From Sugiyamaella lignohabitans (Eukaryota > Ascomycota > Dipodascomycetes > Dipodascales > Trichomonascaceae): a stretch of DNA of 64,000 bases. The first letter of the stretch is position 1. Every line of letters starts with the position of its first letter. The stretch covers positions 310,001 through 374,000 of the forward strand of contig NC_031673.1 of assembly GCF_001640025.1 (NCBI RefSeq). The letters are read 5' to 3'. A program made the translations under genes and the position numbers. Under the pieces are notes generated by a model. The model saw only the letters and a list, made by a program, of their open reading frames with translations, was not told the DNA's origin and searched no databases. Below are positions 903 through 62,134 of the stretch, one piece after another.

Positions 903-1055
903 GCCTCCGGCGGCTGGGGCTCCGCCCCAGACCCTGGTTGTGCTCGCTTCGCGAGCGACGTCACCCACTGAGCGAAATTGAGGCTGTTGTTCGTCCGGAG
1001 CGCTCGCGAAGCGAGCACAACCAGGGTCTGGGGCGGAGCCCCAGCCGCCGGAGGC
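903..1055. repeat. GCP1, full GC-rich palindrome
   Basis: Both arms are present (GCCTCCGGCGG at the left, CCGCCGGAGGC at the right). Each carries a GCTCGC-TTC-GCGAGC type hairpin around a longer spacer of about 40 bp. It lies between the end of the first ORF and the 3' end of MCR1. Confidence 0.95.
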
Positions 1056-1295
1056 AGTGCCCTTCTAGGGGTATGTTGAGGTGCAGTGAAGTCGATAAGG
1101 TTCTAGTGAATAATACGAGATGCAGCATTGCAGCATGCATGCGAGCTTAATTGAGATAGTCAGGGACATTGTTATCATACAAGTATTAAGGTACCACAAA
1201 TAGCCATATGTGGCTAGCGTGACAGAGGCGCATGCAAGTCTACCTATATACATATGTATTTCATGTATCTGTGTATATTGTTTCTATTTAGCTAC

Positions 1296-2573
1296 TTAGA
1301 ACTTGTAAACCTGGTCCTTGTTGTAGCCGAGCTCCTTCAAAGCACCAGTCAACTCACCTTGGTCTTGGGGAGAGACCTTGGGGCCAGAGAGAGCATTGTA
1401 GAATGGAGGAGGACCACAGACGAAGATCTTGATGTTCTCGGAGTCAGGCTTGGGGAGGTTCTTAGAAAGGAATTCCTTAGAAATGTAACCAGTCTCACCG
1501 GTCCATCCACTAGGAGGCTTGTCCAAGAAGTAGGTGACCTTGAATTGATCGGGACGGTCCTTGATAAGAGCCTCAATCTCGTCACGGATCAAGACATCTT
1601 CCTTAGTAACATTGGCATAGAACAGATTGACCTTAGTCTTGTCATTGGGATCCTTGTGGATAGCTTGCAAAAGTTGGTACAAAGGAGTGATACCAGTACC
1701 ACCACCAAGGAGAGCAATCTCCTTGTGGGCATTAGGAGTCCATTGGTACTTGGGGAGAGGACCCTTGAAAGACAAAACATCGTTGGGCTTGAGGCCGTGG
1801 ATATGGGTACTCATAAGACCGTTCTCGTACTTCTTAACGACCAATTCGAAATCACCCTTGTGGTCGACATCGCTGATAGGAGTATAAGGGCGCAAGACGT
1901 TCTTACCGTTCTCTCTAGTGAACTTGGCAAGAACGGCACTAGCAGTGGTCAAACCCAAAACGTGGTCCTTAGAAGGAAGCTCGAAAATGACCTTCTTGGT
2001 CTAGACCGGTTAGCTCACCAAAAACCGGGAAACCCGACACCCGACTCGAGCGAAGCGAGAGGAGCCACGGGGTCTGGGCCAGAGCCCCAGCCGCCGGAGG
2101 CACACCCCCACCCAAAAAAAACACTTACGTTAGGAGAAACATCGATGACCTCCTTGACTTTGAGGTCGACCCACTCGTTGTCTCCAAGCAGAGTCTTAGG
2201 AGAAGAGTCAGCACGGAGTTTGTCGGAGGAAACCGACCAGGTAGCGAAACCGGCGCCAGCAGCAATACCGGCGGCCATGGCCCAACTGGATCTGTTGGAC
2301 GATTTGGAAGTGGCAGTAGCGGTAGCAAACCCACGGGCCTGGGAGAAGAGTTAGTAATGCTGGTCACGGGGTTGGGTTCTGCCTCCGGCGGCTGGGGCTA
2401 CGCCCCAGACCCCATTGCTCCTGCTTCGCAGGAGTTACTGGACCCGAAGGGCCAATTCTTGAGATTTGGCACGAGAAAAAGCGTTTTTGGCCCGAGTCTA
2501 GAGATATGGCGAGGAAGCAACTTACACTGCTAGCAGCGACGTTGAAAAGTCTGGCAGAGCTGTTTCTGAACAT
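1296..2573 (-). CDS. MCR1: NADH-cytochrome b5 reductase, mitochondrial form, 3 exons
   Basis: Passes electrons from NADH through FAD to cytochrome b5. The yeast family member works at the mitochondrial outer membrane and intermembrane space, supporting ergosterol synthesis and oxidative stress defence. Exons on the minus strand are 2573-2526, 2338-2129 and 2000-1296, giving 320 residues. Introns have GTAAG starts and TTACTAAC or GCTAAC branch points. The N-terminus is Arg/Ser/Ala-rich like a mitochondrial presequence, followed by a hydrophobic anchor (about 33-50). FAD motif RPYT is at 123-126, the NADH-binding GGGTGITP at 185-192, CGPPPF at 281-286, and the end is the typical DQVYKF. The ASAVLAKF stretch and the presequence favour Mcr1 over Cbr1. 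Each intron holds a half GCP repeat. Confidence 0.95.
2042..2101. repeat. GCP2, half element in MCR1 intron 2
   Basis: Right-arm half copy, CGACTCGAG hairpin then CCGCCGGAGGC. It starts 27 nt from the 5' splice site and fills nearly all the 128-nt intron. Confidence 0.95.
2381..2434. repeat. GCP3, half element in MCR1 intron 1
   Basis: Left-arm half copy ending in the CTCCTGC-TTC-GCAGGAG hairpin. The loop of the first stem is TAC instead of TCC. Confidence 0.93.
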
Positions 2574-3086
2574 GTTTACTCTTGTTTAGCAAGTTTGTCG
2601 GTTTCGAAGTGAAAGATTTAGTCAATTGCTTGATTTGCTCGAAAACAATGAACTGTCTATACCTGTGAAGCAAGAATATTCCACAAGCAAAATGCACTAT
2701 TTTTATATTTATAAGTTGGGGACCGGTTTGTCGGAATTGGGGGCCCCGCCGATCTCTCACTCTTTTGCACGGCTGGCCCTGTCTGACGGAAGCTCGACTG
2801 CAATACGGGTATTTTAACTCCCACAACCGCTTGCTCTGAGTACCCCACCAGCCATGCCTCTTTATTGGCTGCTGCTGCCGTTCTTCGGCATGGCGTGATA
2901 GAGCCTGTTCGTAATTATGTGGTAATATGACAAATTAGGCTTATTACTATTTCGAACCTCCAGCGGTCCAGAAAAACATGTCGTCGCTATCCCGATCCCT
3001 TTCATACATACAGTTATCAGGACGCCGATAACGGTCGTCTCTGGATAAATATTCACTCTCACCAATTTTTTTGGCTGGGGTGCAAT

Positions 3087-3149
3087 GCCTCCGGGGGCTG
3101 GGGCTCCGCCCCAGACCCCGTGGCTCCTCTCGCTGCGCTCGAGTCGGGC
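3087..3149. repeat. GCP4, half element
   Basis: Left arm with a GCCTCCGGGGG variant start and a CTCGAGTCG end. Located in the MCR1/NNR2 divergent gap. Confidence 0.92.
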
Positions 3150-3754
3150 ATCGGGGGTGTCAGAATGTTAGGAAAGCACCGAGAAAGTGATAATTCGGGG
3201 ACAATTGGGCATAATCTGGTGGATTTTTGTGAATGTTTGGTGGATTCTGCTGGGGTCTGGGGTTCATAATAACCTTCACGGTACTCCACCTTATCTCATG
3301 TAATCACGTGGTTTAGTAGATATTTAAGAGACATGATTTAGAGTAGGCTGTAGACAGGCATCTGAAACTGATTTTAGACTGATATAAAACATTATCTGGC
3401 ATTTAATGTTGGATGGCCAAACCGAAAGCAGAACCTGATTTTTTTTCTGTTTTGGCTTTTTGTCAGGTGTTTGCGGTCATACCGAGACCATTTCTGGCCG
3501 TTATCAGTTAGCGACAAACCCGAGCAAGCTTGCGGTTCAGAGACGCACAATTGCATATCAGCCTTTAAAGGGTTGAAGCTCTATAAAGCAATGCAAGCTT
3601 ACTAGCATATATATATAATATAGTGTAGTATAGTATAAATTGCTAATCAGCCCATTATCGATAATATATAGTGGATAGTGAATACAAGGCTGCTTCTCCA
3701 TCACATTACAACATTGACGTCAGGCAATTTCTGAATTGAATCTATATGCAGAGA

Positions 3755-3850
3755 GAATTTATTGGTAATTGGAAATTGGGAATTGACAATTGAATTTTGA
3801 ATTTTGACTTTTGAATTGACTTTTGAATTGAATTGAACTGAACTGATTTA
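3755..3850. repeat. AATTG-rich low-complexity tract
   Basis: Repeated AATTG / TTTTGAATT words in the immediate promoter of NNR2, ending 23 nt before the ATG. Confidence 0.7.
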
Positions 3851-3872: not shown

Positions 3873-4962
3873 ATGTCGCTGGAAAAATTGGGCAGGAAAG
3901 AGCTTCTGAAGTTGGCAAAAAGATTGATCCCACCTCTCAGCGACACTTTCCACAAGGGCCAAGCCGGCCGCATAGCCGTCGTAGGAGGAAGTCAAGAGTA
4001 AGCACCAACACCGGACCCCACGATCCCAGCTGCTTGCGAAGCAAGCACAACCAGGTCTGGGCGGAGCCCAGCCGCCGGAGGCACACCCACCCACTAACTA
4101 ACATCCCAGTTACACGGGAGCACCATTCTTCTCAGCAATGGCATCGACTCTGGTAGGAGCTGACATGTCACATGTTATTTGTGAGAAGTACGCCGGTGAC
4201 GTGATCAAATCGTACTCGCCCAATCTGATTGTACACCCCTATTTATTTGAAACCGAGCATCTTCCGTCAGGTCACAGCATACAAAATGTAGTTGAAAAGG
4301 TGTGTTCAGTGTTGGATCGAATTCATGTCGTAGTAATTGGACCGGGACTAGGCAGAGACAAGACGATGCTGGAAACAACGGCAGCTATTATCCAAGAAGC
4401 TAAGAAACGCAAACTGCCCATTGTCATTGATGCTGACGGGTTATATCTGATCCAAAACCAGCCGGATCTGATTAAAGGCTACGAAAAGGCCATTTTGACG
4501 CCCAATGTAGTAGAGTTCCAACGGCTATGCAAGGCACTGGAGATCGACGACGCAGGGGGAGACGATCCGGCGTCTGCACCTAAAGTGTCTAAACTGGCAA
4601 CGACGTTTGGCGGTCTGACAATCCTGGAAAAAGGTAAATTGGACAACATCTCCAACGGCCATACCACGATTTCGAACGATATCTCTGGCGGACCCAAGAG
4701 AGTCAGCGGACAGGGTGACACCCTTAGCGGGTCAATAGCAGCCTTTCTAGCCTGGCAACTGGCGTACGAACAGAAACTCTGGGACACTGAGCCTATCAAA
4801 GAAGCTCAAGACTCGCGAGACCTGACTCTCCTTGCGGTCTTTGCAGCCTCATCCATCACCCGCACCGCCTCGGCCCTCGCGTACAAAAACCACGGCCGGG
4901 CACTCCTCACCTCCGACATCTCGGATTCGGTCGGTGCTGCCTTTAAACAATTGTTCGAATGA
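3873..4962 (+). CDS. NNR2: ATP-dependent (S)-NAD(P)H-hydrate dehydratase, 2 exons
   Basis: Repairs hydrated NADH/NADPH (NADHX, NADPHX) back to the normal cofactor, a metabolite-repair enzyme of the ribokinase-like fold. Exons 3873-3997 and 4110-4962 give 325 residues. The junction makes GGSQDYTGAPFFSA, the conserved N-terminal motif of the family. GPGLGRD lies at about 119-125 and the ATP-site GQGDTL with the probable catalytic Asp at about 242-247. The intron has GTAAGC, an ACTAACTAAC branch region and CAG, and contains a half GCP. Without splicing the ORF would lack the first 51 residues. S. cerevisiae YKL151C is the expected orthologue. Confidence 0.95.
4029..4082. repeat. GCP5, half element in the NNR2 intron
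   Basis: Right-arm half copy in a shortened form: CAGGTCTGGGCGGAGCCCAG, so the main stem has lost one G:C pair on both sides. A TGCTTGC-GAA-GCAAGCA hairpin stands in the second position. It ends 27 nt before the 3' splice site. Confidence 0.92.
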
Positions 4963-4986: not shown

Positions 4987-5123
4987 GCCTCCGGCGGCTG
5001 GGGCTGCGCCCCAGACCCCGTGGCTCCTGCTTCGCAGGAGATGACTGGGTTCGTCGACGGAACGACTCGAGCGAAGCGAGAGGAGCAACCAGGGTCTGGG
5101 GCGGAGCCCCAGCCGCCGGAGGC
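4987..5123. repeat. GCP6, full element (137 bp)
   Basis: Complete two-arm copy with the central GTCGACGG core. It starts 25 nt after the NNR2 stop and ends 71 nt before the ELA1 stop on the other strand. Confidence 0.97.
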
Positions 5124-5194
5124 ACACCCCTTAAATAAGTTCATCTATCGAGTTACTATATACAGGTCGTTAGGTCGTGAGGTTCGTGAGGTCG

Positions 5195-8944: not shown

Positions 8945-8998
8945 CTCCTGCGAAGCAGGAGCAACGGGGTCTGGGGCGGAGCCCCAGCCGCCGGAGGC
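8945..8998. repeat. GCP7, half element
   Basis: Right-arm half copy with the CTCCTGC-GAA-GCAGGAG hairpin. It lies 81 nt downstream of tRNA-Asp and 57 nt from the BRN1 stop. Confidence 0.95.
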
Positions 8999-14256: not shown

Positions 14257-14441
14257 GTAAGTGGGTCAGATTGCCTCCGGCGGCTGGGGCTCCGCCCCAG
14301 ACCCCGCTGCTCCTCTCGCTACGCTCGAGTCGGGCTCCATGATCCCAGCCATCTCCTGCTCAGCAGGAGCTATGGGGTCTGGGTCGGAGCCCCAGCCGCT
14401 GGAGGCCAAGCCCCCCTCCCATAAGCATCCTGGCTAACCAG
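14257..14441 (+). other. Probable 5' UTR intron of CUL3
   Basis: GTAAGT at 14257, GGCTAAC branch and CAG ending at 14441, 10 nt before the CUL3 ATG. A full GCP occupies 134 of its 185 nt. Confidence 0.7.
14273..14406. repeat. GCP8, full element in the CUL3 leader intron
   Basis: Both arms present, with a GGAGTCGG-like change in the right arm. It begins 16 nt after the 5' splice site and ends 35 nt before the 3' splice site. Confidence 0.93.
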
Positions 14442-17108: not shown

Positions 17109-17244
17109 GCCTCCGGCGGCTGGGGCTCCGCTCCAGACACCGTAGCTCCTGCTTCGCAGGAGATTGCTGGCACCGTCGACAGAACGACTCGAGCGTAGCG
17201 AGAGGAGCTACGGGGTCTGGGGCAGAGCCCCAGCCGCCGGAGGC
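17109..17244. repeat. GCP9, full element
   Basis: Complete copy between the convergent stops of CUL3 (29 nt away) and the minus-strand gene ending at 17291 (46 nt away). Confidence 0.97.
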
Positions 17245-19665: not shown

Positions 19666-19725
19666 GCCTCCGGCGGCTGGGGCTCCGCCCCAGACCCCGC
19701 TGCTCCTCTCGCTTCGCTCGAGTCG
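19666..19725. repeat. GCP10, half element
   Basis: Left arm with the CTCGAGTCG end. Intergenic, preceded by a CTGGGTGTT flank. Confidence 0.95.
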
Positions 19726-20240: not shown

Positions 20241-20300
20241 CGACTCGAGCGAAGCGAGAGGAGCCACGGGGTCTGGGGCGGAGCCCCAGCCGCCGGAGGC
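20241..20300. repeat. GCP11, half element
   Basis: Right arm starting CGACTCGAG. It is about 200 bp beyond the RPS17 stop codon. Confidence 0.95.
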
Positions 20301-20918: not shown

Positions 20919-22259
20919 TTTTGTTGATTAGTTGAAGATTTCGGTTGTACTTTCGTAAACTGTAGAAACGTTCAAGTACTTGTTCTGGCTATGTTGCACT
21001 GGCTGCTACTGTCTGCCCTTCGTGCATGTTGAGTCCCTCTGTGAGTCGATGAAAATTTCCGCGTATATTACAGCACTGCCGATCGACCGTCGTGAAAACC
21101 TGGAGTTCGCTTTCCCAAATAGGAAACTTCATATCTCTCCTGTGACTGTGGCACACCTGCTCTGCGCGCTTAAAAGCATATAATGACCCTCTTAGAGACT
21201 ACCTCTACAGTCCCCCTCCACGACCCAATCTGGGCCCTGCCCCTTTTTCAAACTCTCTATAGAATTCTTGTACAAAAAAGCCATTTCCGTAACCCATACA
21301 AGACGACCCTTAACCCCCAGAAACTCAGTCTTCTCCTGTTCTTATCTCTCCACCCCTGCACCATCATCCTGCAGGGAGCATGCACCTCCCGGTCCCTGCA
21401 TCCTCCTCTGCTCCTTAACTCCCCCCTTTCCAATCTCCTGGCTCTTCAAACCCACTCTCAAACTGGCCATTTCACTCGGAGGCGCTCTACTCGGGTCCCA
21501 TCTGCCGCCAAACCTCTCCCGACACTGGCACTGGGGGTTGGGGTCTGCCTCCGGCGGCTGGGGCTGCGCCCCAGACCCCACTGCTCCTCTCACTACGCTC
21601 GAGTCGTTCCGCCGACGGTCCCAGCCACTCCTGCGAAGCAGGAGCCACGGGGTCTGGGGCGGAGCCCCAGCCGCCGGAGGCCGTCCCCGACCCCCTGAGC
21701 CCCCACCCCGATATATGGAATATATGCTGCACGTCGGGGGTGGAAGTGAGAGAGGCGCGTTGGAGGAGGGAGGAGGTGAAGACAGGTATCGGCAGCAGCG
21801 AACAGAGCAGCAGCGGAGCAGAGTTAGCGGAACGGATCGAATCGCACCGCAGGTGGCATTGACATTGGCAATATTTTGGCATTTGGTGAGTCAATTGGAC
21901 CGCAAATTATTTATTAGTCAGGGATTTTTTTTGAGGACAGGTGCTCATTCGTCAGCAGTGTCCGATATTCAGACGGATTATTAATAGAATATCACAGTTC
22001 AGAGTGGACTCAGAAGTGGTATCAGTTGGTAATCGTCGCGAAGTGGCTATTCGGACAAAATAAAAGGACAATATAGACAGGAAAAGACAGGGTCTCGATT
22101 GGCATTTCGTGATTCTGCTGTGTCTAGAACGAGTACGAGGTTAAAGTACAGTGTTGCTCGGAGACAGGGTCTTGTCGGGCCGAGAATCGCGTATTACTGA
22201 TCTATGGACGCATCGACAACAGCACGAGCTAGTTTTTAAACTCGCAACAGAAAATAAAA
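20919..22259. other. Divergent gap between RPS17 and ADA2
   Basis: Contains a C-rich stretch (about 21200-21540) and one full GCP. The open frame 21183-21698 runs into the repeat, has no family features and is not called. Confidence 0.6.
21547..21681. repeat. GCP12, full element
   Basis: Complete copy, G-rich on its left flank and C-rich on its right flank. Confidence 0.97.
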
Positions 22260-24332
22260 ATGACAGTGATTCACCGCAAAAGTGCGGCCAATCCACTAAA
22301 AGCGGCGGAACCAGGCGTGAAGTAAGTATTGGTCGGGTCCGAACATGTGTGATTCATGTCCGAGCTAGCCTTACCTGTAAGAGCAACAACCGAAAAACAA
22401 CAACGGTGGGCTGTTAGATTTCGATTTCTTCGGCAGCTGCGAATGGTTCTTTTCACCTGATTCATGTAAAACAGGCTTTGAAAAGAACCCCCAGGTGCCG
22501 GACTCCCCACCAGTTTTCTTCACAATTATCAGATTCAGGCAGTCTATCCGGCTCGTTACAGTCTCATTCCCTACATGCCACACCTCCCAACGCCCGACTC
22601 GAGCGTAGCAAGAGGAGCCACGGGGTCTGGGGCGGAGCCCCAGTCGCCGGAGGCAGTACCCCCTTCCCCGGAATGGAAGCGATACTAACCGATAACCAGA
22701 TTCCACTGTGATATATGTTCATGCGACTGTACGAATCTCGTTCGGATCCGGTGTGCAGAATGCCAGGATTATGATTTGTGTGTGCAGTGTTTTTCGCAGG
22801 GTGGAGCATCAGGAACACACCAGCCATGGCATGATTATATGATTGTGGAGCAGCATGCGTACCCTATTTTCGACGATGATTGGGGTGCTGATGAAGAGCT
22901 GCTGCTGCTAGAAGGAGCAGAGCTCCAGGGTCTTGGTAATTGGCAAGATATCAGCGACCATATTGGAGGAAGATCTAGAGAAGAGGTGGATGAGCATTAT
23001 AATAAAGTGTATCTACAGAGTGCAACATATCCATTGCCAGAAATGAACAAGAAGTTCAATATTAGTCCAGCGGAATTCGCAGAAAAGAAGCGTCAGCGGT
23101 TAGAAGACCGACGAAAGAATGCACCAGCTCTGCCAATTCCAAAACAAAAGCCCACAGCGTCGGTTCCTGCATGCCACGAAGTACAAGGTTACATGCCAGG
23201 ACGTCTGGAGTTTGAACAAGAAACAGAAAACGAGGCGGAAATGAGTGTCAAGGATATGGTATTTGATCCGGAAGAACCGTCACAGGAAGTCAATTTCAAA
23301 CTGACTATTTTGGATATTTATAACTCGCGGTTGACGACTCGTGCCGAACGCAAACGAAGCATCCTAGCCCATGGATTACTTGATTACCGCAAGAATGCTG
23401 GTATTGAGAAAAAACGAACTAAAGAGGAGCGTGATCTGGTTAATAAACTGAAACCGTTTGCACGAATGATGACTAGAAAGGATTATGAGATGCTGACCGA
23501 TTCAATGCTCACGGAACTGAGGTGTCGACGCCGGATTGCCGAGTTACAAGAATACCGACGCAACGGTATTCGCACACTAGAAGCAGCAGCCAAGTATGAA
23601 CGTGACAAGGTGACAAGAATCAATGCTCTCAACAGAGCAGGTATCATACTCGGTGGAGGAATGACTCCGTCGAGCAATAGCACTATTTTGAACAACAGTA
23701 ATATCATAAATGGAACCAGTTTGACCCGTAATTCACTGGGCTCTAAACCTGGTACTCCCGGGCCTCTAAACAGCACTAGTTCTATCGACAGTACTAGTAC
23801 TGTTAACGACAGCACCAGCAGTACTAATGGCAGCAGCAATGTCAACAACACTGCTGTTAGTGTCATGTCCCCTCTTGGATACAAGTTCTCTCCGTCTGTA
23901 TTCACCAATATTTCTGAATCCGAACGGTCGAGTCCATTTGGCAGTCTGTCGTTGCCAGGAACCTCGTCCTCTACCGCTCTTAACGGTGGCAGTGGCAGCG
24001 GTTTAGGCAGCACCGGCGGTTCGGTCACTCCCACAGCCACCACCAATGGAACGACCCTGAAGATTCGCAAGTCCATCAGCATGACCACACCTCCACTAGA
24101 CATCTCGCAGGCAGCAGACGTGGAACTCCTATCACCACAAGAACAACTTCTCTGCTCGCAGCTCCGCATTCTCCCCAAACCATACCTCGCAATCAAAGAA
24201 ACATTATTCCGCGAGCTGGTACGCACAGGAGGTATCCTCAAACGCAAAACAGCCCGCGAGCTTATCAAAATCGACGCCGCAAAAACTGGCCGTATCTACG
24301 AGTTCTTCCAGAGCCAGAACTGGCTGTCCTAG
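22260..24332 (+). CDS. ADA2: SAGA/ADA adaptor Ada2, 2 exons
   Basis: Adaptor of the Gcn5 histone acetyltransferase module of SAGA. Exons 22260-22321 and 22700-24332 give 564 residues. Splicing joins EPGVK to FHCDICSCDCTNLVRIRC, restoring the ZZ zinc finger (about 22-68, paired CxxC motifs). A SANT domain follows (DEELLLLEGAELQGLGNWQDISDHIG, about 80-125). The conserved middle includes MPGRLEFEQETENEAE. A Ser/Thr/Asn/Gly-rich linker precedes a C-terminal SWIRM domain (about 480-564). The 20-residue extension before the ZZ finger is longer than in S. cerevisiae. The 378-nt intron (GTAAGT, GATACTAAC, CAG) carries a half GCP. Confidence 0.95.
22595..22654. repeat. GCP13, half element in the ADA2 intron
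   Basis: Right arm, 45 nt before the 3' splice site. One stem base differs (CCAGTCGCC). Confidence 0.95.
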
Positions 24333-24385
24333 TCACACACCTCTTATTTATTGTAAAATAATAATATTCGAACACCCGGCGTGAC

Positions 24386-24519
24386 ATCGGCGGCTGGGGC
24401 TGCGCCCCAGACCCCGCTGCTCCTCTGGCTTCGCTCGAGTCGTTGCGTCGACGGTCCCAGCCATCTCCTGCGAAGCAGGAGCTACGGGGTCTGGGGCAGA
24501 GCCCCAGCCGCCGGAGGCA
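24386..24519. repeat. GCP14, full element with damaged left end
   Basis: The left terminus reads ACATCGGCGG instead of GCCTCCGGCGG; the rest is intact. It sits between the convergent stops of ADA2 and the CFIm25 gene (54 and 29 nt). Confidence 0.95.
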
Positions 24520-26512: not shown

Positions 26513-27554
26513 ATGTTATTAAAGAAAATTCTCCCTTTATTGGCACTGGCAGTGGTATCTGCTCATGAAGTGGAATCGCATGATTCCGGTATTTTACCTG
26601 GAGATGATGTAGCGGCAGGAGAGGTGGTCGGATCAAACTCAGGAACCACCAAAAGTGTCACAGGCTCGTCATCCTCACCACACGAGGAGCCTCAACTGCT
26701 GCCACAGATGCTCCCGGGCCAGAATCTCCCAGTCAGTTGCATTAGCAGACACATCGACACCGGCGAGCACAAGTTCGACATAAACAGTAAGTACCTGCTG
26801 TGAACCTTGGAATCAGGTCCAAACTTCACACATATACTGGACACCGAGACGCCCCGACTCGAGCCCAGCGAGAGGAGCCACGGGGTCTGGGGCTCCGCCC
26901 CAGCCGCCGGAGGCAGAATGGGACGCAAGACCTTGGGCTAACAACCGAATAGACAACATTATCTACACCAACTTCCCCGTGTGTAAAGAAACAGGCAAGC
27001 CGCTGGGTTTTCAGTTTCTTGTTGACGCCAAGACCAATTGTACTTTCTCGCTGGACGATGAGACGTATCACTTGTTCCAGCTCTATCTCCACGAGGACGT
27101 TCCTCTGACATGTCGAGTGCCGCTGTCTGAGACCGAGTATCTCCCTATCACCATGGATATCCGAGGAGACACTGAAGAAAGTCATATCGATTTAGATCCC
27201 ACTTTGAATGTAGTGTTCTTCGCACGCCAGGCGCCAGTGACTAACCTGCTGACCGACGAAGTCGACTACACACCGTATCCTGTGCCTGTGTCGGGCACAG
27301 CGTTTAGTTCGGCATATGCCCACAAAGAACGTCATATCATCGGCGACTCCATTACACTCCAGTTCGACACTAAATGGTACGCAGGCACTTCTTTGCCCTC
27401 ATACAACTCTGACCATTACAATTTTGGCACGACCGTGCTGTATAGCGGAGCGTCGTTCATGGCGGCCACGATCCTCGTGTCATGCGCTTTCTACGGCTTC
27501 TTGCTCCCTAAACGTCTCCGGTATCACTCTGACGAGTACACTAAACTCGACTAG
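26513..27554 (+). CDS. Type I membrane protein of the secretory pathway, unknown function, 2 exons
   Basis: Exons 26513-26786 and 26953-27554 give 291 residues. An N-terminal signal peptide (MLLKKILPLLALAVVSAHE) is followed by a Ser/Thr/Gly-rich stretch. A Cys-containing ectodomain follows (LPVSCISRHIDTGEHKFDI, then NFPVCKETGKPLGF). One membrane segment at about 255-275 and a short basic cytosolic tail complete it. The layout resembles yeast Psg1 (YKL077W), but that is only a guess from memory. The 166-nt intron contains a half GCP and has a GCTAAC branch. Confidence 0.8.
26855..26914. repeat. GCP15, half element in intron
   Basis: Right arm, but its stem loop reads GGGGC-TCC-GCCCC as in a left arm, so the loop has been inverted or converted. 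It ends 38 nt before the 3' splice site. Confidence 0.94.
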
Positions 27555-27603: not shown

Positions 27604-27663
27604 GCCTCCGGCGGCTGGGGCTCTGCCCCAGACCCAGTGGCTCCTCTCGCTGCGCTCGAGTCG
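27604..27663. repeat. GCP16, half element
   Basis: Left arm, between the convergent stops at 27554 and 27729. Confidence 0.95.
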
Positions 27664-32151: not shown

Positions 32152-33341
32152 ATGCCTTCTTTGACCGGACCCGATGTGCTGACCCGCGGTGGAAGGGTTA
32201 TAGGCGGCCACTGTAAGTTTTGTGTGAAAATTCGACAGTTTTGTGCTGGATGAGGACAGCGGCACTTTTTTTTGCCCCTGATATCAGTCGGATGGTCATG
32301 TGGAAATTTATTCAGGGAAAGATGCGATTCTAACAGTTGTAGTTCCAGCACCTCGTAAAGCGACGATTCGAGAACTGATCGAGGAGAAAGTGGCATCTGC
32401 AAAAGAGTATCTAATCTTTGCCAAAGATGAGATTATTGATATTATCACCGAGATCCGGGTGCTTCGAGTCCCGCTGCTCAATTGGGGCATTATTCTATGG
32501 TACGCGGCATGGCTGGTGCGACTGACTCTGAGGTTTACAAAATTATATGCTAAACATGCCCTGTTTACAATGACTATAACCAATCTGCTGTTATACGGAC
32601 TTGCGGACACGCTTGCTCAAACGCTGCGGTCCATGATTGCATTTAAACCCGAAGCACGGCCCGAACGGTCCGCGGTATTTGTCAAGTATATTCTCGAGAA
32701 AGGACGTCCTCGTCGGGTTATCCTGGATGAGGAAGATGACGACCTTCTGGAACTGGGTCTAGATCCTGACCTGTTGCTAGAAGATCACGACGACCACGAA
32801 TCTGCATCACGCAACCTGCCGGTGTCTCAGCCTGAGATCTTCCATTTTCGGCGACTGGCTCTTTTCTCGGTGTGGGGCGTCATAATCTCCTTTTTCCAGT
32901 CCCCCTGGTATGCATTTCTCAACAGCTCCTACAACGAAGACAACCTGTTCCTCCAGGCCCTGAAACGGGTGCTCACCGACCAGCTCTGCTTCTCTCCAAT
33001 CTGTAAGTGACGAATGGGGGTCTGCCTCCGGCGGCTGGGGCTCCGCCCCAGACCCTGGTTGTGCTCGCTTCGCGAGCTCTGCGGGGGGTGGTGTACTAAC
33101 ATTAGCAGCTTTGGCATGTTTTCTCAGTTATATGACGGTGGTTCTTGAGGGCGGTGATAGGGAGGCCGTGGCCGTGAAGCTCAAGAGAGACTATTTGCCG
33201 ACGCTGGGTCTGAATTATTTGCTGTGGCCAGCTACCCAGTTTTTCAACTTCATGATCATGCCGAAACACCTGCAAATCCCGCTGTCTTCTACAGTCGGTG
33301 TCTTTTGGAACGCATACTTGTCCCTGAAGAATGCCCGCTAA
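32152..33341 (+). CDS. Mpv17/PMP22-family membrane protein, 3 exons
   Basis: Small integral membrane protein family of mitochondria and peroxisomes; Mpv17/Sym1 members are thought to form membrane channels. Predicted exons are 32152-32212, 32316-33002 and 33109-33341, 326 residues. The family core is HALFTMTITNLLLYGLADTLAQ, then RRLALFSVWGVIISFFQSPWYAFLN, then DQLCFSPISLACFLSYM, made across the second junction, and LNYLLWPATQFFNF. Intron 2 (GTAAGT, TACTAAC, CAG) contains a half GCP. Exon 1 and the first acceptor (TTCAG at 32311-32315) are less certain because no strong branch point is visible; they were chosen to keep phase and an ATG. The large acidic insert (about 160-180) is unusual. Confidence 0.85.
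33024..33077. repeat. GCP18, half element in intron 2 of the Mpv17-family gene
   Basis: Left arm ending in GCTCGC-TTC-GCGAGC, 21 nt after the 5' splice site and 31 nt before the 3' splice site. Confidence 0.95.
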
Positions 33342-33374: not shown

Positions 33375-33542
33375 TGACCATCCACCGCGCCCGAGCGAAG
33401 CGAGCCACGGGGTCTGGGGCAGAGCCCCAGCCGCCGGAGGCAGCGAGGGAACATGCTCTTGCGACCACTCACCACGCTCGAGCGAAGCGAGCCACGGGGT
33501 CTGGGGCGGAGCCCCAGCCGCCGGAGGCAGCGAGGGGACAGT
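33375..33542. repeat. 88-bp tandem duplication carrying GCP19 and GCP20
   Basis: Two right-arm half elements (about 33389-33442 and 33477-33530) lie in direct order with an 88-bp period. The unique flanks are duplicated too (GTGACCATCCACC versus GCGACCACTCACC, and CAGCGAGGG after each). This sits between the convergent stops of the Mpv17-family gene and SCH9. Confidence 0.93.
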
Positions 33543-36789: not shown

Positions 36790-36840
36790 GCCTCCGGCGG
36801 CTGGGGTTCCGCCCCAGACCCCGTTGCTCGCTTCGCTCGG
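36790..36840. repeat. GCP22, half element
   Basis: Left arm. The stem has a G:T change (GGGGT-TCC-GCCCC) and a short GCTCGC-TTC-GCTCGG second part. Confidence 0.92.
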
Positions 36841-37122: not shown

Positions 37123-37172
37123 CGAGCGAAGCGAGCCACGGGGTCTGGGGCAGCGCCCCAGCCGCCGGAGGC
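37123..37172. repeat. GCP23, half element
   Basis: Right arm, with loop AGC in the main stem (GGGGC-AGC-GCCCC). Confidence 0.93.
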
Positions 37173-39233: not shown

Positions 39234-39367
39234 GCCTCCGGCGGCTGGGGCTCCGCCCCAGACCCTGGTTGCTCCTCTCGCTGCGCTCGAGTCGTTCCGC
39301 CGACGGTCCCAGCCGCTCGCGAAGCGAGCACAACGGGGTCTGGGGCAGCGCCCCAGCCGCCGGAGGC
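39234..39367. repeat. GCP25, full element
   Basis: Complete copy with CTCGAGTCG and GCTCGC-GAA-GCGAGC hairpins around a CCGCCGACGG core. Confidence 0.96.
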
Positions 39368-41038: not shown

Positions 41039-41099
41039 GCCTCCGGCGGCTGGGGCTCCGCCCCAGACCCTGGTTGCTCCTCTCGCTTCGCTCGAGTCG
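41039..41099. repeat. GCP26, half element
   Basis: Left arm with the CTCGAGTCG end and a G-rich left flank. Confidence 0.95.
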
Positions 41100-41432: not shown

Positions 41433-41493
41433 CGACTCGAGCGCAGCGAGAGGAGCAACCAGGGTCTGGGGCGGAGCCCCAGCCGCCGGAGGC
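41433..41493. repeat. GCP27, half element
   Basis: Right arm beginning CGACTCGAG, preceded by the C run and followed by a C-rich flank. Confidence 0.95.
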
Positions 41494-42710: not shown

Positions 42711-42913
42711 GTAAGTGGTTTTGGAGGGCCGGGGTGTGCCTCCGGCGGCTGGGGCTCCGCCCCAGACCCTGGTTGCTCCTGCTTCGCAGGAGTTTGGATG
42801 GGTTCTCGACGGAACGACTCGAGCGAAGCGAGAGGAGCTACCAGGGTCTGGGGCGGAGCCCCAGCCGCCGGAGGCAGTCCACCCCTCCAGAAGGTCCAGA
42901 ACTAACAGTTTAG
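42711..42913 (+). other. Probable 5' UTR intron of the Gin4-like kinase
   Basis: GTAAGT at 42711, ACTAAC branch and TAG ending at 42913, 7 nt before the ATG at 42921. The only upstream ATG (42668) would run into a stop just after the junction. A full GCP fills most of the intron. Confidence 0.7.
42738..42875. repeat. GCP28, full element in a leader intron
   Basis: Complete 138-bp copy, 27 nt after the 5' splice site and 38 nt before the 3' splice site. Confidence 0.96.
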
Positions 42914-42920
42914 ACACGAG

Positions 42921-46498: not shown

Positions 46499-46552
46499 GC
46501 CTCCGGCGGCTGGGGCTCCGCCCCAGACCCCGTAGCTCCTGCTTCGCAGGCG
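46499..46552. repeat. GCP29, half element
   Basis: Left arm, 68 nt after the kinase stop codon. A remnant of the central core (GTTGACGAGCGACTCGAG) follows to about 46586. Confidence 0.9.
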
Positions 46553-46609: not shown

Positions 46610-46746
46610 GCCTCCGGCGGCTGGGGCTCTGCCCCAGACCCCGTAGCTCCTGCGAAGCAGGAGATGGCCGGGACCGTCGACGAAAACGACTCGAGCGAAG
46701 CGAGAGGAGCCACGGGGTCTGGGGCAGAGCCCCAGCCGCCGGAGGC
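46610..46746. repeat. GCP30, full element
   Basis: Complete 137-bp copy directly after GCP29, between the kinase and NAM9. Confidence 0.97.
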
Positions 46747-48515: not shown

Positions 48516-48652
48516 GCCTCCGGCGGCTGGGGCTTCGCCCCAGACCCCGTAGCTCCTGCTTCGCAGGAGATGGCTGGGACCATCGACGAAAACGACTCGA
48601 GCGAAGCGAGAGGAGCCGGGGGGTCTGGGGCGCAGCCCCAGCCGCCGGAGGC
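48516..48652. repeat. GCP31, full element
   Basis: Complete copy between the convergent stops of NAM9 (55 nt) and SRV2 (30 nt). Main stem loops are TTC at the left and GCA at the right. Confidence 0.97.
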
Positions 48653-48682: not shown

Positions 48683-50675
48683 TTAACCATCTATAGCGAC
48701 AACGGTGCTGGTGAGCTGGCCGTTAGGACCGATGCGGTGGACCACTTGCTCGGGGAGAGGCGTTTCGGAGTAGTCGCCCTCTTCAGCGTTTCTGGGCACT
48801 TCGATGTTGATGGCCGAGGTCTGCGAGGTGTAGATGTCGACATTGAGAGACTCCTCGCTGAGGTAGATTTGTCCTTCGTGACTCTGGTCGATGGTCAGAG
48901 TGGGCATGCTGCCGGTGACTTGAAGCCCGAATCCAGTAGATTTGATCACGTCGACACCAGAAACAAGGTTCTCAAATAGAACACCCACTTTAGAACATTC
49001 GTTGATGGTGATGGCACTGACTTTGCCCTTGATTTGAATGGTACAGTTGGAACAGCGGTCGATGAACACTCCTTGGTTCATTTCACCCTCAATAACAATC
49101 TTGTGCTCATTTTCAAAGTATTCAACAATCCATTTAGTGTCAATGAGCTCTTTATGAGCAGGCTTCTTCTTGGATTGAACGTTACTAGCAGCAGATGGTG
49201 CTCCAGCAGCGAGACTGGCGGGTTTCTTGGGTGGAGGAGGTGATTTCTTGACCTTTGAAGCTTCATTTGCACCGGCACGAAGTGCTGGGTTCTTATGAGT
49301 CATCTCGCTCTTATCGACCTTCTTCAATGACGAGGTAATACCTTCTCCTTGGTTAAGAGCAGCAAATACCGCGTTCATACCACCGCCAGAACTGCTCGAC
49401 GAATCAGTCTCTGGACCAGATTTGGCGTCGTCAGTGAACAAAGAAGCTGGAGGTGGTGGAGGAGGGGGTGGTGCACCACCAGTCTTAGCAGCACCAGATG
49501 TAGAGTCAGGAGGAGTGACAGCTGGAGTAGCGATAACAGAGGTACTAGCACCCTCTTCGTTCTTCTCTTTAATAACAACATCTAAAGGTTTACCGTTTTC
49601 ATTCCATTGAAGACCCTTGGGATAATGTTTACGAACAAACGACTGTAAATCGACAATGACACTGGAGAAGGTACGAGCCCAATCGACATGTTTCTTCTCC
49701 ACATCCTTATACTCCTTGAGAATCCGGTTGCTATAGAATTGGGCACTGTCTTTGAAATCACTGATATAATCAACAGGCGAGTCAACAGTGACCCAACCAA
49801 GAGCAGGAATGCCTTCTGCAACAGTTGCCAAGTGGTTAATGAATTTCGAGCCTCGATTGGTCTCACGGATGTTAATAATGGTTTCTGCATGCTGTTGAAT
49901 AGGAGCAAACAGTTCAGAAAACGTCTTTGACGACACATCTGGTTTCGATGCTTTAAGTGACACAATCAAGAAATCTCTCTCGGCCTCAAAAGCTCTCAAA
50001 AGAGGAATCACCTGTTCCTCAATCAACGGGTCCAAACTCTTACTCAAAGCCAGCAATTGAGTGAGTCCGGTCTTGATAATCGTCTCGAACTCTTCAATAA
50101 TAGGAGACGAAGAGGGCGAATCAACAGATTTAGCAGCTGGTGTCGATCCCACGCCTCCAGAACCACTTGTATCAGTAGGAGAAGTAGCAATAGAATCAGC
50201 ACCCGAACCCACTCCCTTCTCACCCACAGCACTTCCGGCATCAGAACCAGCCGCTGCCTCAGCTCTCTTCTCTGCCGTGACTCCAGCAGCTGTACCCAAA
50301 GCCGACCTACTCAGCGCCTCCGAATGATAAACAGTCAGATCTTCCAACCGCGAAGTCGCCGCTTCCAACCTAAAAACCCCTGTTAGTCACTTCATTCACC
50401 CCACAACCCCCTGCTGCTCGCGAAGCTAGCACTACGGGTCCTGGCGGAGCCCGGCCGCCGGAGGCATATTTCCGGGTCGGGGTGTGCCTCCGGCAGCTGG
50501 GGCGCTGCCCCAGACTCCGTTGTGCTCCGCTTCGCGGAGTGGTTTGGACTTTGGCAACCGCAATGGGGTGCCGGTCCTGTTGTAAATGTGTCCCCGGCGG
50601 GAGTGGTACGTACCGCTTCATGAGCGTGACAATGTTGTAACCCGGGCCCGAGGGCGTGTTCTCGTTGACACTCAT
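48683..50675 (-). CDS. SRV2: Adenylyl cyclase-associated protein (CAP), 2 exons
   Basis: Binds actin monomers and recycles them from cofilin; in yeast it also tethers adenylyl cyclase for Ras signalling. Exon 1 is 50675-50614 and exon 2 is 50369-48683, 582 residues. Splicing gives TLMKRLEAATSRLEDLTVYH, the cyclase-binding N-terminal motif. The helical CAP-N domain contains LGWVTVDSPVDYISDFKDSAQFYSNR. A poly-Pro run of eight with PPASLF follows, then a WH2-like region (LKKVDKSEMTHKNPALR) and the beta-helical CARP domain to the C-terminus. The 244-nt intron (GTACGT, ACTAAC, TAG) carries two different half GCPs. Confidence 0.94.
50416..50465. repeat. GCP32, divergent half element in the SRV2 intron
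   Basis: Right arm of the second stem type (GTCCTGGCGGAGCCCGGCCG) ending CCGCCGGAGGC. Confidence 0.88.
50486..50539. repeat. GCP33, half element in the SRV2 intron
   Basis: Left arm with the changed start GCCTCCGGCAG, loop GCT, and hairpin CTCCGC-TTC-GCGGAG. Confidence 0.9.
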
Positions 50676-50898: not shown

Positions 50899-51035
50899 GC
50901 CTCCGGCGGCTGGGGCTCCGCCCCAGACCCTGGTTGCTCCTGCTTGGCAGGAGATGGCGGAGACCGTTGCGAAACGACTCGAGCGTAGCGAGAGGAGCAA
51001 CCAGGGTCTGGGGCGGAGCCCCAGCCGCCGGAGGC
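50899..51035. repeat. GCP34, full element
   Basis: Complete 137-bp copy in the divergent SRV2/ARP5 promoter region, between the two CACGTG palindromes. Confidence 0.97.
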
Positions 51036-53466: not shown

Positions 53467-53640
53467 GCCTCCGGCGGCCGGGCTCCGCCCGGACCCGTTG
53501 TGCTCGCTTCGCGAGCGGGGTCGGGCTGTGGTCGGTCTGTCCTCTCGCTTCGCTGGAATCGTTTCGTCGACGGTCCCAACGAAAACTCCTGCGAAGCAGG
53601 AGCAACCAGGGTCTGGGGCGGAGCCCCAGCCGCCGGAGGC
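53467..53640. repeat. GCP35, composite element with two stem types
   Basis: Its left part is the second type (GGCCGGGC-TCC-GCCCGGACC plus GCTCGC-TTC-GCGAGC). A CTCTCGCTTCGCTGGAATCG segment and a normal right arm follow. It lies 36 nt after the ARP5 stop. Confidence 0.92.
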
Positions 53641-57771: not shown

Positions 57772-57825
57772 GCCTCCGGCGGCTGGGGCTCCGCCCCAGA
57801 CCCCGTGGCTCCTGCTTCGCAGGAG
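57772..57825. repeat. GCP37, half element
   Basis: Left arm with CTCCTGC-TTC-GCAGGAG, followed by the core remnant GACCGTCGACGG to 57847. It lies between the convergent stops of TRM6 and MTQ1. Confidence 0.95.
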
Positions 57826-58985: not shown

Positions 58986-59180
58986 GCCTCCGGCGGCTGG
59001 GGCTCCGCCCCAGACCCTGGTTGCTCCTCTCGCTTCGCTCGAGTCGGGGCGGGGACTGTCGCCAAAGCCTGGAAACCACCAACTCTGAGCCTGTTAGAAA
59101 GTGTCTGGCACCCCGTGCCCGACTCGAGCCAAGAGAGAGGAGCAGCCAGGGTCTGGGGCGGAGCCCCAGCCGCCGGAGGC
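58986..59180. repeat. GCP38, two facing arms with a long central insert
   Basis: Left arm 58986-59046 and right arm about 59118-59180, separated by about 70 bp of unrelated sequence. The right arm is worn (CGACTCGAGCCAAGAGAG). It covers most of the MTQ1 to MCY1 promoter gap. Confidence 0.93.
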
Positions 59181-60609: not shown

Positions 60610-60668
60610 ACGGATCTGTATAAATAGACTTGCACATAATATTAGATCTGACGCTCTTGCCGGCGTAA

Positions 60669-60729
60669 CGACTCGAGCGTCAGCGAGAGGAGCAACGGGG
60701 TCTGGGGCGGAGCCCCAGCCGCCGGAGGC
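60669..60729. repeat. GCP39, half element
   Basis: Right arm beginning CGACTCGAG, between the convergent stops of MCY1 (60 nt) and the PP2A gene (34 nt). C-rich right flank. Confidence 0.96.
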
Positions 60730-60762
60730 AAAAGCCCCCCCTCTCTCCCATCTACCAGAAAG

Positions 60763-61788
60763 CTATAAAAAGTAATCTGGAGTGCGACGAGAGAAATTAG
60801 ATTGTCCAGAGCGCGGACTGGGGTCGAACTGGAGGAAGGTTGTGTTCATGTTTTCGTCGACTTCCATGATAGCGGCCTGGTTTCCACATCGGTAGCAGTA
60901 GTTTGGGGCCGAGAAGATGGTGACAACCCGTTCTTCGTGGGTGAATTGGTAGCCTTCCATGATGAGCTGATGGGCTCGAGCTATTAGAGAGAGCGAGTTG
61001 GCATGGTTGAATTGACTGGATATATCGAAACCAAAAGTGAATCCAGCACCTCGAGGAGATACACCCCATGCCGAGCGTTCATCGGGATCCGACCACAGCA
61101 AGTCACATACTGGTCCTTCATGAGGAGCTTCCTGAAATCTGTCCAATTGCACGATTTGGTCCAGAGTTTCAATAGAAGGAGACAGTCCTCCATGTAAACA
61201 GAAAATCCTATTCTCAACTAAAGCAGTCAGAGGCAGGTAATCAAACAAGTCAGTAAATGCTGTCCATACTTTAGTATTGCCATATTTTCGCAAACATTCA
61301 TCATAAAACCCATAAACCTGAGTAATCTGGCGTGATTCGTGATTTCCACGAAGAATCGTTATACGATGAGGATAGCGGACTTTGTATGCAAGTAGCAGGC
61401 TAATAGTCTCTACCGAGAAATACCCTCTATCGACATAATCACCCATGAACAAGTAATTGGTGTCTGGACAAGGGCCGCCTATACGGAAAAGTTCCAGCAA
61501 GTCGTGGAACTGGCCATGAATATCGCCACAAATAGTGACTGGCGAGCTCACTGGCTGGACATTGGATTCATTGACGAGGATCTCTCGTGCTGTGTCACAT
61601 AATCTCATCACCTGAGATTCGCTAAGAATCTCGCATTTTAGCAGTCGTTCAATCCAGGTTTCTAGAATGCCAATACCGATAGAATGCAGATTTTCAGCGG
61701 GTTTGATTTCTGGGATGCCATCTCCCGAGCGGGACGTCGACGCTGGATGTTTAACCTGACTCAGAGGATCTTCTTGGTCGACTTCCAT
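60763..61788 (-). CDS. Serine/threonine protein phosphatase 2A catalytic subunit
   Basis: Catalytic C subunit of PP2A (Pph21/Pph22 type). 341 residues from the ATG at 61788. The frame is open further upstream but that extension is Cys/His-rich without family support. Metal-binding motifs GDIHG (88-92), GDYVDRG (116-122) and RGNHES (147-152) are intact. The C-terminus RRTPDYFL carries the Leu that is carboxymethylated and the Tyr that can be phosphorylated. An N-terminal extension of about 30 residues over mammalian PP2A is typical of yeast Pph21/22. Confidence 0.95.
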
Positions 61789-61998
61789 GGCAAATCGAAT
61801 CGAAAGTCTGACATATGAAACGTCCAAAGTCTCTGTACGATAACAACAAGGATTGAGAGCAATCAAGCAGCCGCTTGAAACGGGATTGATTTTATATGCA
61901 CGATAACAACACTTGCATAAGATAGAGTGCAGCTGATTGCACCCGTGCATATGACTTCCCTGCAATGCCTCTTCATGAATTCTTTATGGCCGGCCTGT

Positions 61999-62134
61999 GC
62001 CTCCGGCGGCTGGGGCTCCGCCCCAGACCCTGGTTGCTCCTGCTTCGCAGGAGATGGCGGGGACCCCGACGAAACGACTCGAGCGCAGCGGGAGGAGCAG
62101 AGGGGTCTGGGGCCGAGCTCCAGCCGCAGGAGGC
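61999..62134. repeat. GCP40, full element with a worn right arm
   Basis: The left arm is perfect; the right arm has several changes (GGGGCCGAGCTCCAGCCGCAGGAGGC), so the terminal pairing is partly lost. Confidence 0.95.

Follow-up and report, generated by a model that had tools for sequence, protein, structure and literature searches.

The nuclear genome of Sugiyamaella lignohabitans carries a high-copy, non-coding family of palindromic elements, as an earlier reading made from the letters alone (hereafter the sequence-only reading) had proposed. On balance, we interpret it as a non-autonomous, hairpin-based mobile family that works in a REPIN-like manner and is related to a family of bacterial doublets, possibly via horizontal transfer. 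Within the window (the whole 64,000-nucleotide stretch analyzed), the exact 11-base end motif GCCTCCGGCGG occurred 46 times compared to 0.03 expected, a number that none of 100 shuffles reached. The sequence-only reading had called for a whole-assembly count: across the genome searched (15.9 Mb, four contigs) the motif was found 6,286 times versus 9 for the reversed control, establishing the family as high-copy genome-wide, while a 37-nt end-plus-flank pattern allowing ≤2 mismatches gave 2,252 matches versus 0 reversed. Defining an arm by ≤4 mismatches across its outer 18 bases, we counted 53 arms in the window, 42 of them exact. These make up 38 copies, close to the roughly 40 claimed earlier, namely 23 single arms versus 15 full inverted doublets, the first copy starting at 903 and the last ending at 62134. 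Eleven of the 15 full copies measured 134-138 bp, where at least nine had been reported, and the other four measured 122, 153, 174 and 195 bp. The copies and the introns assigned to genes are given below; full elements are listed without strand, and half-element coordinates are those of the outer 18 nt of the arm.

903..1055, full element, 153 bp
2084..2101, minus strand, half element with B-type inner hairpin, in intron 2001-2128
2381..2398, plus strand, half element, A-type, in intron 2339-2525
3087..3104, plus strand, half element, B-type
4065..4082, minus strand, half element, C/D-type, in intron 3998-4109
4987..5123, full element, 137 bp
8981..8998, minus strand, half element, A-type
14273..14406, full element, 134 bp, in intron candidate 14257-14441
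17109..17244, full element, 136 bp
19666..19683, plus strand, half element, B-type
20283..20300, minus strand, half element, B-type
21547..21681, full element, 135 bp
22637..22654, minus strand, half element, B-type
24383..24518, full element, 136 bp, one end decayed
26897..26914, minus strand, half element, B-type, in intron 26787-26952
27604..27621, plus strand, half element, B-type
31847..31968, full element, 122 bp, one end decayed
33024..33041, plus strand, half element, C/D-type, in intron 33003-33105/33108
33424..33441, minus strand, half element, C/D-type
33511..33528, minus strand, half element, C/D-type, in tandem with the 33424..33441 copy
35890..35907, plus strand, half element, C/D-type
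36790..36807, plus strand, half element, C/D-type
37155..37172, minus strand, half element, C/D-type
39234..39367, full element, 134 bp
41039..41056, plus strand, half element, B-type
41476..41493, minus strand, half element, B-type, with a 25-base G run on its inner side (on the plus strand a C run, 41398-41422)
42738..42875, full element, 138 bp, in intron 42711-42933 (putative acceptor)
46499..46516, plus strand, half element, A-type
46610..46746, full element, 137 bp; 46605-46751 is one long predicted hairpin
48516..48652, full element, 137 bp; one long predicted hairpin
50448..50465, minus strand, half element, in weak intron candidate 50370-50613 with a GTACGT donor
50486..50503, plus strand, half element, back to back with the 50448..50465 copy
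50899..51035, full element, 137 bp
53467..53640, full element, 174 bp
57772..57789, plus strand, half element, A-type, core kept
58986..59180, full element with altered core, 195 bp
60712..60729, minus strand, half element, inner type uncalled
61999..62134, full element, 136 bp
2001..2128, minus strand, intron with half element; its gene encodes FAD- and NAD-binding oxidoreductase domains and is NADH-cytochrome b5 reductase-like
2339..2525, minus strand, first intron of the NADH-cytochrome b5 reductase-like gene, its half element in the opposite orientation to that of the 2001..2128 intron
3998..4109, plus strand, intron with half element, NAD(P)H-hydrate dehydratase gene
33003..33108, plus strand, intron with half element, Mpv17/PMP22-family gene

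The neighboring genes have recognizable domains, in agreement with the earlier statement that the copies lie among nuclear genes. In a 264-kb sample comprising the window and C1:200001-400000, the latter picked after its crowding was seen, 125 element loci spanned 12.4 kb, or 4.7%. Since this sample was denser in the motif than the genome (0.65/kb versus 0.39/kb), the element's share of the genome is by proportion ~2.9%. The family is homogeneous, with 154 of 204 arms exact (arms with ≤4 mismatches in the outer 18 bases). An adaptor artefact, raised earlier as a concern, is ruled out because mutated copies hold matching positions in members of a dispersed repeat that have diverged to 75-93% identity. 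A text search of the literature found no unbroken print of any of five 15-20-base element stretches, and of 69 papers matching six 10-14-base stretches, the 40 listed appeared chance-like by title and abstract.

In the yeast, a pair of arms in inverted orientation makes up the unit, whose median length is 139 bp, and this arrangement, with both tips outward, predominated among neighboring arm pairs within 330 bp (62/94). Each arm consists of a constant outer tip, TGCCTCCGGCGG, followed by a constant hairpin (CTGGGGC-nnn-GCCCCAG) with a free loop, then ACCC and an inner segment of one of a few interchangeable types, and the two arms are joined via a short core. Subtypes were partly mixed within doublets, A+B accounting for 37 of 60 and B+C for 8 of 60. 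This mixing and the excess of single arms in the window would fit the earlier suggestion that the arm may be what moves or recombines, but the predominance of inverted pairs among neighbors would not. Stems departed from consensus at 47 of 2,338 sites and loops at 85 of 501, using 167 of 172 exact-11-mer arms (5 were dropped). Inner-hairpin pairing exceeded all 1,000 shuffles; it was nevertheless partial (43-82% per position across 28 distinct rows), pairing at this place being absent from B and D arms. The sequence-only reading had assigned two stem-loops to every arm, which holds for A- and C-type arms, with their two adjacent predicted hairpins, but not for the B type, whose second stem is only 4 bp in the predicted fold. 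Two full copies were predicted to fold into one long hairpin (z of -12.2 and -11.5), whereas two single-arm pieces folded alone gave a z of only -1.5. The core resembling CCGTCGACG described earlier was present in many full copies but altered in others; similarly, many single arms end just after CTCGAGTCG, as expected if half copies break at the core, but others end at scattered points. The greater conservation of doublets that would be expected of REPINs was only marginal in the yeast, with 99/124 arms exact in doublets and 55/80 among single arms (permutation p 0.052).

The outer ~33-base arm of the yeast element also forms a high-copy inverted doublet in a few Alphaproteobacteria (Roseococcus, Polymorphobacter and others), and apart from loop letters the two are identical; the eukaryote side of this comparison is this one yeast genome. 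An exact 18-mer scan of one genome per species for 84,980 prokaryote species returned at least 119 stretches, and the viral collection returned 22. Among the matches listed from both collections, 94 of 141 stretches held the whole arm, and 65 of 99 neighboring arm pairs in those 94 were inverted doublets, with a median of 122 bp. A rough script sorted the remaining 47 of those listed into 2 cut by a contig end, 9 variant-like and 36 others, many of which look like coding coincidences. Twelve alphaproteobacterial genomes out of 19 picked among the matches listed contained 7 to 279 arms each, compared to 0 for the reversed control. The distribution of the exact pattern was patchy: it was found in 1 of 289 genomes in a class sample and in 1 of 119 and 1 of 80 in family samples, each time the starting genome only. 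The yeast inner hairpins and core had no match at ≤1 mismatch in the retrieved loci of the prokaryote and viral collections (1.01 Mb). Stem and loop lengths differed slightly (GGGGCC-n-GGCCCC in bacteria versus GGGGC-nnn-GCCCC in yeast), as did the flanks of the arm, A-rich in bacteria and, in yeast, G-rich followed by T. Among 39 bacterial doublets, 14 had an A-rich left and a T-rich right flank. The closest relatives found appear, by sequence, to be bacterial rather than mitochondrial, the mitochondrial elements being compared by description only. The likeness to GC clusters and double-hairpin elements noted in the sequence-only reading stands. That reading had missed both the arm shared with bacterial inverted doublets and the copies lodged in introns.

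With respect to mobility, none of 128 k/offset tests on 58 full copies revealed a target-site duplication (highest z, 2.25), nor did direct repeats of 2-9 bases at their ends show an excess. Since a joined-flank search of the 264 kb for empty sites gave only alignments to each element's own locus, the case for mobility is made by dispersal and homogeneity. Our search for a mobilizing enzyme covered three families (Y1, Helitron N-terminus and TnpB), and within that range no autonomous partner was found in the yeast. Y1/RAYT had no match in the yeast genome (E up to 0.001; 5 of 14 control genomes were positive) or in any of 8 arm-bearing bacteria, and the Helitron N-terminus matched neither the yeast nor any control genome. 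A dispersed 2.4-kb repeat with members 75-93% identical, the only larger one found with arms near both ends, carried them there in 6 of 10 copies. By eye, its homology continues beyond the right arm, which means that the repeat is not bounded by the arms.

The element tends to avoid coding DNA, and copies are found close to gene ends and within introns. Using crude ORFs of ≥150 aa as gene models, we found 14 of 125 loci overlapping such ORFs, several of which look spurious. Proximity (≤150 nt) of a locus to a gene 3' end was seen in 41 of 94 chances versus 14 of 120 for the 5' end, and relative to length expectation loci numbered 22 versus 12.7 in convergent and 35 versus 39.7 in divergent intergenic regions. 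This 3' bias, together with the conserved stems and the flanks of the 14 bacterial doublets, which resemble those of bidirectional terminators, would fit hairpins selected as terminators, insulators or RNA-stability signals and homogenized by gene conversion. We regard such a function as very improbable, given that the position data rest on crude gene models and that copies also occupy divergent regions and, in both orientations, introns; selection against harm therefore explains the bias equally well. Strong intron candidates (score ≥7) held 11 of 125 loci, two with weak GTACGT donors, and splicing out element-bearing introns restored conserved proteins. Such introns occur in at least six genes in this window alone, compared to only 5% of genes split in the published annotation (PMC5499181); this disparity could mean that introns with elements are over-represented or that the annotation is incomplete. 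These observations would be expected if, like introners, insertions created host introns, which is nevertheless the most doubtful of the explanations considered: 114 of 125 loci lie outside strong candidates, and splice sites fall outside the detected element at varying distances (donor 16-100 nt, acceptor 27-85 nt), so the element does not carry them. Element-free intron candidates also exist (53 versus 51 with decoy signals, a weak scan), and relatives are richer in introns (2,362 in Trichomonascus vanleenenianus and 914 in Blastobotrys raffinosifermentans; PMC13130702), so older introns into which elements could insert exist in the family.

Terminal inverted repeats, high copy number and the bias to non-coding DNA would likewise suit a MITE family, in which some unseen transposase mobilizes DNA-transposon derivatives that have lost internal sequence and keep these arms as terminal inverted repeats. 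We consider this distinctly improbable, as full copies lack a detectable target-site duplication, the 2.4-kb repeat is by eye not bounded by its arms, and single arms are commoner than doublets in the window, although a transposase outside the three enzyme families searched may exist. A more serious contender, albeit still unlikely, is convergence, by which GC-rich hairpin repeats arose independently in the yeast and in some bacteria, their similarity being accidental or due to a structural optimum common to both. On that view, the yeast family would have no bacterial kin and would correspond, in the nucleus, to mitochondrial GC clusters. The search space was huge (84,980 genomes), a third of the stretches listed (47/141) lacked the whole arm, only a short stretch is specific, the two families have neither inner hairpins nor core in common, and our rough estimate of a chance match (1e-4 or lower) hinges on the number of existing repeat families. 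Against convergence, the shared 11-nt tip forms no hairpin, ACCC falls beyond the stem, the doublet architecture is identical at a similar length in both, and distant bacterial groups carry this arm in high copy number while the reversed control gives no match. The shared stretch spans only ~30-33 bases, partly constrained by hairpin pairing, which weighs against common descent.

Returning to the mobile, REPIN-like reading that we prefer, the likeness of the arms suggests a common origin of the yeast and bacterial families, horizontal transfer being the simplest route. Copies would spread as hairpin or single-stranded intermediates, joined by some enzyme at breaks or at the replication fork, and single arms might arise through loss of one arm at an unstable center or move independently. 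Tentatively, we envisage that a REPIN-like selfish repeat crossed between Alphaproteobacteria and the yeast nucleus, picked up inner hairpins that it had lacked and multiplied into thousands of copies, some of them tolerated within spliceosomal introns, without the REPIN transposase. If true, this mobile hairpin would depend on machinery common to bacteria and eukaryotes and would be a rare case of non-coding mobile DNA common to bacteria and a eukaryote. A family with REPIN architecture in nuclear DNA, whose arm is shared by bacteria that likewise show no RAYT transposase (8 examined), raises the question of whether a bare hairpin can spread in any cell via general replication and repair, and would offer a tractable yeast model for palindrome-driven genome change.

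REPINs are bacterial elements tied to a transposase, while GC clusters and double-hairpin elements are mitochondrial. As described, REPINs are inverted REP doublets mobilized by RAYT, and the yeast family resembles them in being high-copy and extragenic, in its pair of inverted arms that fold into a hairpin around a variable spacer, in its compensatory changes and in the abundance of single arms (PMC3116915). It also shares its arm with REPIN-like doublets of Alphaproteobacteria. It differs in its eukaryote host, its copies in introns, the second hairpin of A- and C-type arms, the lack of a RAYT/Y1 match in the yeast or the 8 arm-bearing bacteria, and the absence, by eye, of a GTAG/CGTC tag at its tips. 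CGTC REPs are described as predominant in Alphaproteobacteria and reported absent from Acetobacteraceae (PMC3733652); the shared arm, by eye, carries neither tag. Saccharomyces mitochondrial GC clusters (GC42) are likewise short GC-rich palindromes with conserved stems and variable loops, whose units merge and shuffle with high reported turnover, but they are described with AG or ACT direct repeats at their ends, which the yeast nuclear element lacks; judged by descriptions, the latter is also set apart by its larger size and its place on large nuclear contigs (PMC4478555). Double-hairpin elements of chytrid and Schizosaccharomyces mitochondria are GC-rich, occur as single units and recall the A and C arms, whereas, compared by description, the yeast family is nuclear, present in thousands of copies as inverted doublets, and has B and D arms with a weak or no second stem (PMC10085805). 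Introners, as described, are also short non-autonomous elements in introns; in contrast, the yeast copies lie mostly outside introns, with splice sites beyond the element (PMC9860276). Taken together, the yeast family works like a REPIN or a mitochondrial GC cluster but departs from each in a defining trait (no RAYT match and no AG/ACT duplication, respectively), and we favor a nuclear REPIN-like element related to a bacterial one, possibly by horizontal transfer.

We counted 46 copies of the element's end motif, GCCTCCGGCGG, in the window where 0.03 were expected, and 0 of 100 shuffles reached that count; the whole genome (15,932,016 bases in four contigs) holds 6,286, compared to 9 for the reversed control, in which the pattern is read reversed. 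These counts bear out the high-copy palindromic family proposed in the sequence-only reading. Allowing up to 4 mismatches in the outer 18 bases, we found 53 arms in the window (42 of them exact) between 903 and 62134; they make up 15 full inverted doublets, with 23 arms standing singly. About 40 copies had been claimed, with nine or more full copies of 134-138 bp; the length of 11 of the 15 doublets lies in that range, and the window loci number 37 by clustering or 38 by arms. The window sits on a 2.28-Mb contig, and the nearest named relatives of one of its proteins are from Trichomonascus and Blastobotrys. The published genome of S. lignohabitans has 16.0 Mb in 4 chromosomes (PMC5499181).

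Detailed counts rest on 264 kb, namely the window and positions 200001-400000 of contig C1 of the yeast genome, a stretch picked after its crowding was noticed, such that the sample carries 0.65 motifs per kb compared to 0.39 for the genome. Elements cover 4.7% of this sample, or about 2.9% genome-wide when scaled by density, and full elements within it number 58, 60 or 62, depending on which of three criteria is used. Density along C1 looks uneven among the first 100 places listed, with crowded and sparse stretches. Five element stretches of 15-20 bases had no occurrence as unbroken print in the papers searched, while six of 10-14 bases gave chance-like occurrences among the matches listed. 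Among the matches listed, a description of the element was likewise absent from the literature on the Sugiyamaella genome, repeats and introns, from that on REPINs, RAYTs, Alphaproteobacteria and the bacterial carriers, and from that on nuclear GC clusters, eukaryote REPs and double-hairpin elements.

Each arm reads, in order, T-GCCTCCGGCGG, the outer hairpin CTGGGGC-nnn-GCCCCAG, ACCC with a short variable joint, and lastly an inner segment, of which we distinguish four types:

Type A: CTCCTGC-TTC-GCAGGAG
Type B: CTCTCGCT.CGCTCGAGTCG
Type C: such as GCTCGC-TTC-GCGAGC or GCTCCGC-TTC-GCGGAGC
Type D: GCTCGCTTCGCTCG

Since A+B (37/60) and B+C (8/60) pairings prevail among the sample doublets, the full unit is usually asymmetric. 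The joint subtype was equal in both arms of 32 of the 46 doublets in which it was determined (the remainder of the 60 being left out), compared to a shuffled mean of 23, and 12 of 2,000 shuffles reached this value. The other 14 doublets were mixed, which suggests some arm reassortment. For each of two full copies (147- and 137-base stretches) the predicted fold was a single long hairpin (z -12.2 and -11.5); that of two single-arm pieces was only weakly better than the fold of shuffles (z -1.55 and -1.52). Differences from the consensus affected 2.0% of stem sites, a lower bound because the 5 rows left out each had more than six stem differences, and 17% of loop sites (167 of 172 exact-motif arms). 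Alternative inner stems change in sequence while keeping their pairing, more so than in all 1,000 shuffles of 28 distinct rows; this pairing is partial (43-82% per position in the same rows), and related copies inflate such tests. A homopolymer of 25 C at 41398-41422 (G on the element strand), the only one of G or C in the window to reach a length of 12, lies at the inner end of, and inside, the half element at 41476-41493.

The outer 18 bases were exact in 154 of the 204 arms identified with up to 4 mismatches, indicating that most copies are young or under homogenisation. Older copies are also present. A 2.4-kb dispersed repeat occurs in about 10 copies, 75-93% identical, on all four contigs (positions 6240-8650 of fetched locus L026, that is C1:376240-378650, and loci L175-L182); 6 of the 10 have arms close to each end. 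Arms common to its diverged members bear substitutions, one of which is matched by a change in the other stem strand. Such shared, substituted arms argue against a library artefact, the outcome that the sequence-only reading had named as counting against the family.

We found no excess of target-site duplications among 58 full copies when direct repeats of 2-9 bases were scored at small offsets (best z 2.25 in 128 tests), and no empty site in the 264-kb sample. Of 145 arms, 95% had a T directly before the tip, and outside it lie about 10 G-rich bases. The 58 full copies (window and loci L009-L028) have G-rich left and C-rich right flanks, mutually complementary at positions 2-12 to a degree matched by 0 of 500 shuffles of the pairs; this complementarity may reflect either target choice or a variable stem base. 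Left and right flanks of B-type single arms (n=17) showed no similarity (z 0.14). The surroundings include other features: Rfam places a 112-nt tRNA gene, probably with an intron, at window 53829-53940, near the full element at 53467-53640, and tandem duplications of ~434 bp (87.6% identical) and ~499 bp (97% identical) lie at window 63067-63959 and at positions 5123-6121 of locus L021 (C1:325123-326121), respectively.

With respect to genes, 14 of the 125 loci in the 264 kb overlap ORFs that are 150 aa or longer, 4 lie at sequence edges, and 50, 22 and 35 occupy tandem, convergent and divergent spaces, compared to 54.6, 12.7 and 39.7, respectively, expected from length. Loci lie within 150 nt of a gene end in 41 of 94 cases, versus 14 of 120 for a gene start. 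Eleven of the 125 loci are within strong intron candidates (score of at least 7); eight of the eleven belong to the window and the other three to the C1 stretch, and two have weak GTACGT donors. A crude intron scan gave 53 candidates compared to 51 for decoy signals and so failed to discriminate, and the intron case therefore rests on the element-centred scan, which returned 15 candidates (11 with a score of at least 7) against 3 decoy-signal ones of any score, together with the conserved proteins restored by splicing. Removing the intron yields one continuous ORF from ATG for 7 of the 8 window introns, in six genes; the candidate at 14257-14441 has no in-frame start codon. The spliced products of these six genes included five that were scanned for domains, the fifth of which gave no match, while four contain conserved domains:

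FAD/NAD-binding oxidoreductase, NADH-cytochrome b5 reductase kind
NAD(P)H-hydrate dehydratase
Mpv17/PMP22
CAP

An introner origin, the first idea given the intronic copies, was rejected as the main explanation by the element-centred scan. Elements lie in both orientations, at distances of 16-100 nt to the donor and 27-85 nt to the acceptor, as expected if they entered existing introns. Against such insertion, only 5% of genes are split in the published annotation (PMC5499181), which makes the number of element-bearing introns in the window notable. Relatives are richer in introns than S. lignohabitans (PMC13130702).

The lack of detectable duplication, the structural constraint and the doublet form lead us to infer that the element may move by a hairpin or single-strand route. 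Half copies could arise when a long palindrome loses one arm at its centre, which established work on yeast palindromes makes plausible; alternatively, arms may move independently. The RAYT transposase, which mobilises classical REPINs, had no match in the one yeast genome or in 8 arm-bearing bacteria, with 5 of 14 control genomes positive. TnpB likewise had no match in yeast, with controls positive, and a Helitron search matched neither the yeast nor any control genome. The 2.4-kb repeat was rejected as an autonomous mother element because its homology passes the right arm by eye. Its ~400-aa ORF was rejected as a transposase because Pfam gave nothing for it up to E = 1, a protein search found no relative, and its fold presumably resembles that of a lipid kinase, judged by eye.

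Several searches sought the element elsewhere. The yeast inner hairpins and core were absent, at up to 1 mismatch, from 1.01 Mb of fetched prokaryote and viral-collection loci; a composite yeast element had no match in plasmid and phage collections, the bacterial element none in the plasmid collection, two yeast-specific inner motifs none in the viral collection, and a spurious ORF through the element, used as bait, none in other eukaryotes. The yeast outer hairpin alone matched 5 stretches, rejected because they differ from this arm. Tagged-REP super-families were also set aside, as neither a GTAG nor a CGTC tag was seen at the arms by eye.

The exact outer 18 bases, by comparison, occurred in at least 119 stretches in 84,980 prokaryote species genomes and in 22 in the viral collection. 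The whole arm was missing from 47 of the 141 stretches listed (by a rough script, 2 contig-end cuts, 9 variant-like and 36 other); among the matches listed, many of these seem to be chance occurrences in coding sequence, for example in Streptomyces. Among 19 genomes picked from the stretches listed, 12 alphaproteobacterial ones carried 7-279 arms, a Deltaproteobacteria MAG carried one, and six (five Actinomycetota and an Acetobacteraceae MAG) carried none; the reversed control was 0 in all 19. Because carriers include isolates or type strains by title (Roseococcus sp. SDR, Polymorphobacter multimanifer and P. glacialis), a binning artefact fails as an explanation. By the exact pattern, which diverged arms would escape, the distribution is patchy, the starting genome standing alone among 289 of its class and among 119 and 80 of two families. 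Across 58 genomes of one class, the starting genome alone showed the bare 11-base tip in strong excess over the reversed control (432 vs 47). Excesses in other genomes were small (e.g. 27 vs 11 in G012), and the tip is not a general alphaproteobacterial feature. At four bacterial or viral-collection loci (L136, L140, L143 and L153), a second bare GCCTCCGGCGG lies ~9-11 bases outside the element tip.

We roughly estimate the probability of a chance match to the 18-mer among all prokaryote repeat families to be near 1%, and about 1e-4 or less once ACCCC and the doublet architecture are included; chance is hard to invoke. It is unlikely, rather than negligibly so, that the yeast and bacterial arms became alike independently, a reading that keeps some weight since the common stretch is short. 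Common descent with horizontal transfer, in either direction, would be the simplest account of the patchy spread across domains. In 94 of the 141 stretches listed the arm runs on as in yeast, GCCTCCGGCGGCTGGGGC-n-GCCCCAGACCC; neighbour pairs within 330 bp among these 94 formed inverted doublets in 65 of 99 cases (median 122 bp), and the yeast equivalent was 62 of 94 (median 139 bp).
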